Source: a virus
Strand: one strand, 5' to 3'
Virus record (IMG/VR): IMGVR_UViG_3300000151_000005
Location: 1-31,469 of that record
Length of the DNA stretch: 31,469 bases
A model generated the notes under the pieces. It saw nothing but the letters and a program-made list of their open reading frames with translations. It did no database searches and was not told the origin of the DNA. This document shows, piece after piece, positions 26,357 to 29,556 of the stretch; the first letter of the stretch is position 1, and every line of letters starts with the position of its first letter. The position numbers were made by a program, and so were the translations under genes.

Positions 26357-27691
26357 CTAATCATCCTCATTTCCTATAATTTCCTCATCTTCCAAGCAGA
26401 AAGCTCCTACGTCAAGTGCTTGTATCATTGACACACTCCAGTACTTCTGACCTTCTCTCACTTTAGCTGCGAAGAGTCTCATAACATTATTCCTTCTCTC
26501 TTCCTCTGTCTGGTTAAGTGACATCACTACGTCAGCTATCTTTGCCTTACCTATACTCCCAGAGGTCTGTCTCAGTCCTACTCTCCTAGCATCAATAGCA
26601 TCTCTCGTACCCTGTGTTGCACTCACTACACTGATGTTCCTCTCCTTTGCTAAACCTCTTAAGTTTGTGAACACATCATCTATCTCATGAATCTTCTCTT
26701 TAAATGTTCTGTCTGCTGCAAGTAAGTCTGCGTAGTCAACAAATATAATATCGGGAGCAAAGCCACTAATCTCAAGTTGATTAAGGTGAGCGTGAATTCC
26801 TCCTACTGTGAACTTACCTTCAATACCTTCTTTAACAATCATCTTACCATTTCTTTTCTTATAGAATTCTTTTGACTTCTTAAATAGTTTTGAATCAGTG
26901 TTAAGAATTTCTCTGTCAGCAAAGTTATGAGATGTACCGTCAGCAAACGTCACCATCAGATCATCGTTAGAACTGAACTCTCTTTTCATTCCTGACATAG
27001 ACATACCCAATCTCTTCATGTAGTTCTTGGTAATCATTTCAAGAGTGTAGACTACTATATTCTTACCTTGAAGTAAAGCACTCATAGCTCCGTCAATCAA
27101 AGCCCATGACTTACCTACGTTAGTCGCACCAAGCCAAAGAAATAATTCTGATCTGCAGTAACCATGAATCTTAGCATCAATAGTATTGATCCCTGTTCTG
27201 CAAACTACATCCAGATCATCATCACCTGTGTGAATGAAATCCCAGAAATCCATTCCAGTATCATAAACATTTAACTCAGTATTGAATGCTTCCAGAATAG
27301 TTTGCTTAACTTCTTTATACTTCTTTGCCTTAATTAACTCTGCTGATCTTAAGACTGCTGCTGTCAACTGTTGATACTGAATCCATTCAATCAATTGAGA
27401 TACGACATACTTCTTATTGAGGTCAATGGTCTTAATCTTCTTTAAATATAGCCGATAGAGTTTTGCTTCCTTAGACCTTTCATCAGATGCTTTGATGAAG
27501 TCTTTGAAATCATCTTTAGGAGCATCCTTAAACTCATCATAATAACTGTACAGCATAGAGCACAAATCTTTTCGAATCATTCCGTCAAAGAGATTCGTAG
27601 AGATACTGGTTCTGCATAACGTCAAGAAATTCTTATCTTGAAGTAACAGTTTTATTATACTATCCTGTATGTAGTCAGTTATTTTTTCCAT
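26357..27691 (-). CDS. DnaB-like replicative helicase
   Basis: A 444-residue helicase. The start is taken as ATG 27691, which overlaps the upstream TAA (TAATG); a TTG at 27739 lies deep in the upstream gene without support. The C-terminal RecA-like domain has Walker A LWLGATNVGKSWAL, the DnaB-type VVYTLEMITKN motif, Walker B DIIFVDYADLL and the later VSATQGTRDAI and AAKVREGQKYW segments. The N-terminal 150 residues are helical. It should unwind the fork 5' to 3' as a hexamer and be loaded by the initiator encoded just upstream. No separate helicase loader was recognised. Confidence 0.88.
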   Translation of the reverse strand: MEKITDYIQDSIIKLLLQDKNFLTLCRTSISTNLFDGMIRKDLCSMLYSYYDEFKDAPKDDFKDFIKASDERSKEAKLYRLYLKKIKTIDLNKKYVVSQLIEWIQYQQLTAAVLRSAELIKAKKYKEVKQTILEAFNTELNVYDTGMDFWDFIHTGDDDLDVVCRTGINTIDAKIHGYCRSELFLWLGATNVGKSWALIDGAMSALLQGKNIVVYTLEMITKNYMKRLGMSMSGMKREFSSNDDLMVTFADGTSHNFADREILNTDSKLFKKSKEFYKKRNGKMIVKEGIEGKFTVGGIHAHLNQLEISGFAPDIIFVDYADLLAADRTFKEKIHEIDDVFTNLRGLAKERNISVVSATQGTRDAIDARRVGLRQTSGSIGKAKIADVVMSLNQTEEERRNNVMRLFAAKVREGQKYWSVSMIQALDVGAFCLEDEEIIGNEDD

Positions 27692-27891
27692 TAAGTTATA
27701 TGCCTTATTACTCTTATTTCTCTCCCACACCTTTGACAATCTAAAGCATCCGTTTCTACATCTTGATAAAGAACATCCTTAAATTGAAAAGCACTATAAA
27801 ACTCTAAAGTATTAATATAATAATTATGCTCCTCACAGAAAGGACATCTGTACATAATTGCTTCCTCTGGTTCTACCACTGGAATTGTCAT
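27691..27891 (-). CDS. Small zinc-ribbon protein
   Basis: A 66-residue protein with two CxxC knuckles: MYRCPFCEEHN (about 16-19) and ALDCQRCGREIR (about 52-55), separated by a hydrophobic strand region. This is a zinc-ribbon pattern. It is coupled to the initiator gene by an ATGA overlap and to the helicase by TAATG, so it may adapt initiator to helicase; that role is inference. Confidence 0.7.
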   Translation of the reverse strand: MTIPVVEPEEAIMYRCPFCEEHNYYINTLEFYSAFQFKDVLYQDVETDALDCQRCGREIRVIRHIT

Positions 27892-29057
27892 TTCACACCA
27901 CTCTCCTTTCTAAATATTACAATTTCATCTCTAATTTCTTTCAGATCAAAATACTCATTCCTCTGTTCTGGAGTTCCTGTAAACAATTCGTGACAATTAT
28001 CAAATATGTGCCTTTTAATCTCTTCCAGATACCACTTAAATTTCTTTTTCTCTACTGCTTGCTGTATTTTAACTTCATTAGATACTTTCTTACTCTTTAA
28101 TTGTAGCATAGGATTATCTACCCAAAACTGTTCCCAAATCTCAATACCATTCTCAGTAATCAATTGATTAGGATTTGGTGCTTTCTCCCAATAATACTTA
28201 TGCTTACTCGTTTCATCTGATTCAAAGAACACATTCCTATAATATGACTTAACTAAACCTCTATATGTCTGAACTCTGTTAGGAGTCTGCTTATCCCAGA
28301 CCAAGAGAAAAGTAGTGAGTGACTTAAAGAACTTCTCATTCTTACCACCAAGTAAGTTATCTTTATAAGTAGTCTGAACAGGTCTGCCATAATCTCGTTC
28401 CAACATAGCTATAAATGATTTCTTAGTTTGAGCTAACTTTTCAAAATAGGAACTGCTATCTTTCATATCTCCAACGTACTCATAATTGTATTTATCACAA
28501 GGTTTTTTGGTGAGGTCAGGATTTTCCTGTTCTGTTGATTCTCTTAAAGAGTTGATTCTCTTAGGAGCTTCCTCATTGGCTTCAAACCCTTTACCTGTCT
28601 GCCTTGAAGACGTTTTACAACCTTTATTTTGGGGATGGTTATCCCCATTTTCATGATTTTCGGGGATGGTTATCCCCATTTCCTCTTTATTTCGGGGATG
28701 GTTATCCCCATTTTCCATTCCCATTTTTAGGTCTGCATCTTTGAATCCAGTGTTAATCCATTTATGCCAAGTGAAAATATACTCTGTTGGAACACCATTT
28801 TTTTTGGGTTTTATTTTTATTAGTCCATTGTCCTCCAATTTTATTAGTATTTTTCTGACAGTGTTTTCCTTTAAACCAACTTCTTCGGCTAATGTTTCTC
28901 GTTTTGGGAAAGCTTTCCCATTTTTTCCTGCATATTGGCACAGCCTACTAAAAATCATTTTATCATTCCCATTTATTTCAGTTCTCTTCATTAACCAGTT
29001 AGGCATGACAGCACCAAAAAATAAATTGAAAGGCTTATATTCTTCTCCTATAATCAT
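27888..29057 (-). CDS. Replication initiator (lambda O-like, winged helix) with internal origin repeats
   Basis: A 389-residue protein. The N-terminal 100 residues are a winged helix-turn-helix (NDKMIFSRLCQYAGKNGKAF, PKRETLAEEVGLKENTVRKI, LIKLEDNGLIKIKPKK), like O-type initiators. A hydrophilic linker (about 110-170) is encoded by DNA with three 16-bp palindromic repeats. The C-terminal part (KSFIAMLERDYGRPVQTTYK; WDKQTPNRVQTYRGLVKSYY; EEIKRHIFDNCHELF) probably contacts the helicase. As in lambda O, the gene carries what looks like its own binding sites. ATGA overlaps join it to genes on both sides. Confidence 0.8.
   Translation of the reverse strand: MIIGEEYKPFNLFFGAVMPNWLMKRTEINGNDKMIFSRLCQYAGKNGKAFPKRETLAEEVGLKENTVRKILIKLEDNGLIKIKPKKNGVPTEYIFTWHKWINTGFKDADLKMGMENGDNHPRNKEEMGITIPENHENGDNHPQNKGCKTSSRQTGKGFEANEEAPKRINSLRESTEQENPDLTKKPCDKYNYEYVGDMKDSSSYFEKLAQTKKSFIAMLERDYGRPVQTTYKDNLLGGKNEKFFKSLTTFLLVWDKQTPNRVQTYRGLVKSYYRNVFFESDETSKHKYYWEKAPNPNQLITENGIEIWEQFWVDNPMLQLKSKKVSNEVKIQQAVEKKKFKWYLEEIKRHIFDNCHELFTGTPEQRNEYFDLKEIRDEIVIFRKESGVK
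28631..28709. repeat. Three 16-bp palindromic iterons, probable replication origin
   Basis: GGGGATGGTTATCCCC occurs identically at 28631-28646, 28662-28677 and 28694-28709, spaced 31 and 32 bp (about three helical turns). Each is GGGGAT/ATCCCC around a GGTT centre. The copies are read in two different codon frames within the initiator gene (GDNHP twice, MGITIPE once), so DNA rather than protein sequence is conserved. AT-rich DNA lies at 28790-28860. Confidence 0.75.
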
Positions 29058-29401
29058 AGTACACCTTCCACTTCAAAATCTAGCATATGATAGAATATTT
29101 TCCCCTCTATTTTTTCAACTTCTACTACCCCAAGAGATTTTAGTTTGTTTAAGCTTTTCTTAAATACTTCTAGGGATAAGCCTACCCAATGACACATTTC
29201 ATCTTGTGATGATGCATGTTCTATTTCTAAAGATTTAGACATTTCCTCATATTCCAAATCTTGCAGAAGAGCAAGAAATACCATTTTATCTCTAGGGGAA
29301 AGATTCTTTGACTTGGCAAGCCATCTAGGGAATATCATTGGGGAAAGAAAATCTTGTGAGATTACTTGCCCTACTTCTCCTCTACATTCACTGAATTTCA
29401 T
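29054..29401 (-). CDS. Winged-helix protein, possible second initiation factor or regulator
   Basis: A 115-residue protein with the same layout as the N-terminus of the downstream initiator: MIFPRWLAKSKNLSPRDKMV then FLALLQDLEYEEM, DEMCHWVGLSLEVFKKSLNK and LKSLGVVEVEKIEGKIFY, a winged helix-turn-helix with wing. It may bind the iterons or act as a regulator or co-initiator. Start ATG 29401 follows GGAG; it is the first gene after the structured leader RNA and ends in an ATGA overlap with the initiator. Confidence 0.65.
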   Translation of the reverse strand: MKFSECRGEVGQVISQDFLSPMIFPRWLAKSKNLSPRDKMVFLALLQDLEYEEMSKSLEIEHASSQDEMCHWVGLSLEVFKKSLNKLKSLGVVEVEKIEGKIFYHMLDFEVEGVL

Positions 29402-29414
29402 TAAATTACTCCAT

Positions 29415-29477
29415 AAAAAAATGCCAAGATAAGTGAACCCTCTCCGTGCGAACAGTTATGGTTCCTTACCTTGGCAT
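29415..29477 (-). terminator. Rho-independent terminator hairpin in the leader
   Basis: ATGCCAAG (29477-29470) pairs with CTTGGCAT (29428-29421), continuing as GTAAG with a G-U, one bulged A (29434), then GAACC with GGTTC, for 18 bp in all, followed by seven U. It lies between the promoter and the first gene, so it must be read through for the initiator genes to be expressed from this promoter. Confidence 0.85.
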
Positions 29478-29521
29478 GTATCAAGATATCTTATAGTTCG
29501 CACGCAGTTATATTTTTCTAA
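29415..29521 (-). ncRNA. Promoter-driven pseudoknotted RNA (attenuator leader or small RNA)
   Basis: From the predicted start (about 29521) to the U-tract (29421-29415) lies about 107 nt with no gene. It contains an 18-bp terminator hairpin whose 20-nt apical loop has GTTCGCACG (29453-29445), perfectly complementary to CGTGCGAAC (29504-29496) near the 5' end. The two pairings cross, so they form a pseudoknot or compete. A 10-nt palindrome AAGATATCTT lies between. ATAACTG occurs twice, just before each partner. Confidence 0.75.
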
Positions 29522-29527
29522 GACTCT

Positions 29528-29556
29528 ATTATACCAAATATCATGCCATTTGTCAA
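29528..29556 (-). promoter_or_regulatory. Consensus sigma-70 promoter
   Basis: Minus strand TTGACA (29556-29551), 17-nt spacer, TATAAT (29533-29528): a perfect match in sequence and spacing. It drives the structured RNA and, past the terminator, the initiator-helicase genes. Confidence 0.92.

Follow-up and report, generated by a model that had tools for sequence, protein, structure and literature searches.

A structured leader RNA and terminator ahead of a phage replication-initiation operon, a possible transcription attenuator

In the 31,469-nt virus record IMGVR_UViG_3300000151_000005 (analysed whole and called the window below), a promoter, a short RNA and a strong terminator stand directly before the genes for replication initiation. 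A sequence-only reading of the locus had proposed that the RNA controls replication initiation as a riboswitch or protein-sensing attenuator, or that it is a stand-alone small RNA. Its coordinates for the promoter, the start region, the hairpin, the U7 tract and both complementary 9-mers are correct on the minus strand (Table 1). Among the proposed roles, a cis-acting transcription attenuator of the phage replication-initiation operon fits best, because the terminator lies 13 nt from the start of the initiator operon and a strong alternative fold is available to the pre-terminator RNA; we put the probability of this reading at somewhat under one half (about 0.47).

Table 1. Coordinates of the leader, the replication operon and associated elements (positions in the window unless another contig is named).
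Feature	Position	Strand	Remark
sigma70-type promoter TTGACA-17-TATAAT	29528..29556	-	TG ahead of -10; 12/12 consensus positions
107-nt leader RNA (proposed attenuated transcript)	29415..29521	-	ends inferred from promoter and U-run
P1 5' strand CGTGCGAAC (RNA: CGUGCGAAC)	29496..29504	-	exact complement of 29445-29453
P2 5' strand UAUCUUG	29482..29488	-	same 7-mer as 29425-29431 in terminator 3' arm; pre-emptor-like
terminator 5' arm	29460..29477	-	
P2 3' strand CAAGGUA	29467..29473	-	part of terminator 5' arm
P1 3' strand GTTCGCACG (RNA: GUUCGCACG)	29445..29453	-	inside terminator loop
terminator 3' arm	29421..29439	-	
U7 tract	29415..29421	-	first U also closes the stem
115-aa winged-helix protein gene	29054..29401	-	start codon 29401
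389-aa replication initiator	27888..29057	-	DnaD/O-like, PHROG 270 and others
three 31-nt repeats	28622..28715	-	palindromic core; within initiator gene, downstream of leader
DnaB-like replicative helicase	26357..27739	-	downstream of initiator, same direction
sigma54-like element sites	L011 9442-9720	+	
	L011 8745; L011 5203	-	
	L099 617-802; L012 3431-4270		
	window 29548	-	
CCCTAGAGAAG...GTGGGA block	L011 9790-9835; L099 935-985; L012 4395-4440		weak consensus fold

The promoter agrees with the consensus at every position, as had been claimed, with the -35 box TTGACA at 29556-29551 and the -10 box TATAAT at 29533-29528 separated by 17 nt on the minus strand, and the predicted transcription start, taken from the promoter position, is at about 29521. 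Three copies of the pattern CTTGACA(16-17)TATAAT are present in the window, where 0.11 would be expected (the expectation is for the slightly wider pattern searched), and it is thus a real promoter class of the phage; the three copies precede the leader RNA, a tRNA cluster and another gene. Over 67 nt, the leader promoter region matches the promoter of the relatives L099, L100 and L101 at 79%. An inverted repeat, TGTNAAG-N6-CTTGACA, spans the -35 box (29570-29551 in the window; 7544-7570 in L102, where it is perfect) and is possibly an operator. Ten tRNA genes (ARAGORN) are scattered over the replication region between 18428 and 26283, one cluster sitting behind a perfect promoter at 26335-26308.

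The leader had been described as gene-free, and it is overlapped solely by mechanical ORFs without a Shine-Dalgarno sequence; a 15-codon GTG frame was considered as a leader peptide and rejected for lack of such a sequence. The claimed 18-bp hairpin followed by U7 is present at 29477-29421, with 18 pairs including one G-U, one bulged A and a 20-nt loop (-28.8 kcal/mol), and for the whole 107-nt leader the folding energy is -29.5 kcal/mol (z = -4.05). The first gene is preceded by a promoter, an untranslated leader and an intrinsic terminator, as in a transcription attenuator. The Rfam search with the leader RNA gave no match at the gathering threshold and miRNA-precursor noise alone at a relaxed threshold, in line with the earlier remark that no known riboswitch class is recognisable.

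The start codon of the 115-aa gene lies 13 nt past the end of U7, and the operon runs 5' to 3' as leader RNA, 115-aa gene, initiator and DnaB, the initiator, which has PHROG replication-initiation matches, being the second gene. In a consensus scan, no minus-strand promoter-like site was listed from the leader to the initiator start; the nearest downstream site is at 28444 (9/12), within the initiator gene. Transcripts from the leader promoter and from upstream must therefore both cross the terminator. Judged from this layout, expression of the initiator operon probably needs read-through, and the leader terminator probably sets how often the replication genes are switched on. The 31-nt repeats are likely origin iterons. 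In phage lambda, iterons lie inside the initiator gene, transcription passes through the origin, and a terminator stands upstream of the replication genes. The window phage resembles lambda in its putative iterons, origin transcription and upstream terminator, whereas N/nut antitermination was not found in it and its terminator belongs to a dedicated leader with its own promoter. Because the putative iterons lie inside the initiator gene, as in lambda O/ori, read-through would transcribe the putative origin too. Direct repeats in the N-terminal part of the initiator gene were seen in four phage lineages, namely the window phage, L100 (2771-2842), L012 (7071-7190) and L105 (2119-2162), the last three with two or three repeats each and with sequences unrelated between phages; these stretches are likely origins of the lambda type, with iterons particular to each phage.

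The terminator loop is exactly complementary over 9 nt to a segment near the 5' end, as the sequence-only reading had stated, and the helix thus formed (P1) uses the only two exact copies of its 9-mer in the window. When the 5' 44 nt were shuffled with the terminator kept, a 9-nt complement of the loop arose in one of 5000 shuffles, and the fold stability to nt 82 was also matched in one of 5000. Across the loci compared there are 392 distinct hairpin-plus-U sites of at least -12 kcal/mol in strength, and P1 is their longest match between a 5' segment and a short loop; the only other 9-nt match involves a 55-nt loop on a weaker hairpin of -15 kcal/mol. We therefore take both the terminator and P1 as real. 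P1 shares no base with the terminator stem and can form alongside the complete hairpin, so P1 alone need not block termination. The only helix competing for the stem is the 7-bp P2 (UAUCUUG:CAAGGUA). With P1 kept and nt 27-44 shuffled, 2052 of 5000 sequences (41%) gave an equally stable prefix and 361 of 5000 (7%) paired equally well with the terminator 5' arm. A direct repeat of UAUCUUG like that in the terminator 3' arm would turn up in about 2% of shuffles. The idea that P2 is statistically strong on its own was rejected, as it does not exceed chance in the nt 27-44 shuffles. As to the proposal that the 5' segment decides whether the terminator forms, P1 would not by itself have to do so; P2, a weak helix, is the one that overlaps the stem.

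The 82-nt pre-terminator RNA has a folding energy of -21.6 kcal/mol (z = -3.84; none of 200 shuffles was as stable), with P1 nested around P2, which ties up part of the terminator 5' arm. When the RNA was grown in silico, P2 appeared at about nt 57, P1 had closed around it by nt 78, and the energy stayed at -21.6 kcal/mol from nt 81 to 90; the terminator was predicted to be the better fold only from nt 98-99, with two or three bases still to come ahead of the U-run. The P1 and P2 core of the pre-terminator fold was unchanged from 5 to 37 C. The helices had been described as crossing; they do cross relative to the terminator, but as long as the terminator 3' arm has not been made, P1 is simply nested.

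Nearest-neighbour folding leaves out pseudoknots and kinetics, and the following path is what we infer from it. RNA polymerase would start near 29521, and over the first 97 nt or so the RNA would keep the 9-bp P1 and probably the 7-bp P2, the latter on part of the terminator 5' arm. The emerging 3' arm would pair with a largely unpaired AGGAACC toehold beside P2 and displace P2 to give the 18-pair terminator, while P1 probably stays as a pseudoknot with it, making the end state a crossing structure. Most transcripts would end at U7, and a minority would read through into the genes for the 115-aa protein, the initiator and DnaB, covering the putative origin with its iterons as well. This balance would be shifted by some factor, for which the 115-aa protein, the speed of the polymerase and an antisense RNA are candidates. 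If the leader regulates read-through, the replication decision of the phage would be controlled by RNA folding, beyond a repressor alone; such control is known for plasmids, and a phage example was not found in a limited literature search.

The same features might belong to an unregulated partial terminator, which would hold replication-operon transcripts at a fixed low ratio, leave the 107-nt RNA as a stable by-product and use P1 merely to compact a pseudoknotted 3' end. The compatibility of P1 with the full terminator, a P2 competition not beyond chance, and the lack of both a recognisable aptamer-like core and an Rfam match would all suit such an element. However, the exact 9-bp match between the 5' segment and the loop is improbable by chance and needless for a simple ratio-setter, and we regard this explanation as doubtful. 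Less credit is due to a stand-alone small RNA, in which the pseudoknotted 107-nt molecule would act in trans, with targets in the host or the phage, and the operon would be fed by read-through from upstream promoters. Its own perfect promoter, strong terminator and a fold more stable than shuffles are what such an RNA would have, but the RNA ends 13 nt from a start codon, upstream transcripts must cross the same terminator, and the RNA is without a homologue among the sequences searched; we consider this role unlikely.

The closest mechanism in print to the proposed attenuator is that of the plasmid rep genes of pT181 and pIP501, in which a pre-emptor and a terminator beside the rep start are controlled by antisense RNA, pIP501 having a small HTH regulator as well (PMC5703833). 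Common to both are an untranslated leader directly before a replication-initiator gene and an intrinsic terminator shortly before the start codon. A candidate pre-emptor pairing with the terminator 5' arm (UAUCUUG:CAAGGUA) is present in the phage leader as well, but it is not statistically significant. The phage leader differs in sending its extra 9-bp helix to the terminator loop, in belonging to a phage with DnaB and PolA genes, and in being followed by a small winged-helix gene that resembles the initiator and not CopR. Antisense control itself, in which a counter-transcript would bind the leader and force termination, shares the logic of pre-emptor, terminator and rep gene (PMC5703833), and plus-strand promoter-like sites occur at 29471-29497 (TTGGCA-15-TATAGT, 10/12) and 29026-29054 (11/12). 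These sites are weak: the leader-internal one has its boxes 15 nt apart, a poor spacing, and is followed by no terminator, the other lies within the first initiator codons and has no equivalent in the counterpart stretch of L012, and dozens of promoter-like sites of at least 9/12 are expected by chance. An antisense-controlled leader is quite unlikely.

The layout of promoter, RNA, terminator and gene also recalls the phage-borne RCd22-abiF, where an RNA of about 100-130 nt is followed by a terminator and a gene expressed via limited read-through (PMC12373285). The leader could then be an RNA partner of the 115-aa protein encoded after the terminator, as in AbiF/RCd22 or type III toxin-antitoxin systems, and the RNA and the 115-aa gene are indeed jointly missing from the relatives that cover the region. 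Against this, the leader lacks AbiF RNA motifs (no AbiF match in Rfam) and tandem repeats, and the downstream protein is a winged-helix initiator paralogue and not a nuclease, ToxN or Abi_2 protein, which makes the partnership improbable. A comparison of the 115-aa protein with the N-terminal winged-helix domain of the initiator gave an hhalign probability of 92.8% (P = 3.9e-7), and by this alignment it is a distant paralogue of that DNA-binding domain. Its AlphaFold model shows the winged-helix order of elements at low confidence (pLDDT 60), so fold matches of the model carry little weight. Riboswitches are known from phages but described as rare, an example being the glutamine riboswitch of phage Melnitz (PMC9004378); there too a structured RNA is proposed to control phage genes, whereas the present leader has no Rfam riboswitch match and a simple two-helix fold without a recognisable aptamer.

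Relatives were compared over the same region. L003/L011 (IMGVR 3300000212_000206) overlaps the window and, with complete identity along 6277 nt, adds no independent evidence; L012 and L123 (99.9% identity over 13 kb) were counted as one phage, the placement of L123 in a MAG labelled Nanoarchaeota probably being a binning error. The closest PolA relatives (L004-L006, 80-82%) stop short of the leader region and were left out. L100/L101/L099, L012/L123 and L105, whose DnaB proteins are 80%, 75% and 72% identical to that of the window phage, share the gene order SNF2 helicase, small genes, initiator and DnaB, and are without the leader RNA, a terminator before the initiator and the 115-aa gene. 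In L100, the same promoter stands behind the SNF2 gene and leads into the small genes and the initiator, with no strong hairpin between.

No divergent homologue of the leader RNA was found in searches of viral contigs with the 115-aa protein, initiator, SNF2, PolA and DnaB, or of genome contigs with DnaB; one DnaB alignment (A1) was discarded as too generic, having brought back unrelated phages. A covariance model of the antiterminator fold, run on 515 kb of loci, matched the window and the identical overlapping contig only. A scan of all viral contigs for the exact P1 pair retrieved, besides the overlapping contig, five unrelated GC-rich sequences in which the terminator architecture is missing. 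At the DNA level, phages and plasmids yielded nothing useful, the phage matches being weak and confined to the promoter stretch or 21 nt. Since the leader RNA and the 115-aa gene are jointly absent from relatives, they were gained, or lost elsewhere, together; a module present in one lineage and absent from its relatives points to joint acquisition of the gate and a stand-alone initiator domain. It is conceivable, though doubtful, that the leader is a phage RNA switch gained with this domain, which would sense a signal (perhaps the 115-aa protein) via the P1 pseudoknot and gate both initiator synthesis and origin transcription.

Two further explanations of the 9-mers are very unlikely. They might be binding sites for a regulator in DNA, with RNA pairing incidental, as they are inverted about 51 bp apart (close to five helical turns), each is preceded by ATAACTG or a near-copy, and winged-helix proteins are encoded next door, but one sits exactly in the terminator loop and the window holds no further copy. 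The complementarity might also have arisen by chance, in an ordinary leader or in an intergenic terminator. A single lineage and no conservation would accord with this, but the frequency is 1/5000 for this hairpin and stays below 1% even when the roughly ten terminator-like sites counted over half the window are allowed for.

Upstream of the SNF2 gene, the window phage and its relatives carry clusters of sigma54-like -24/-12 elements (TTTGGCAY-N4/5-TTTGC, GG-N10-GC), which in L099 are 46-nt tandem copies; a degenerate copy (GG-N10-GG) lies inside the spacer of the leader's sigma70 promoter. These elements could equally be iterons. Also upstream of the SNF2 gene, three otherwise divergent phages conserve a block around CCCTAGAGAAG...GTGGGA followed by a T-run, a possible structured RNA or terminator.
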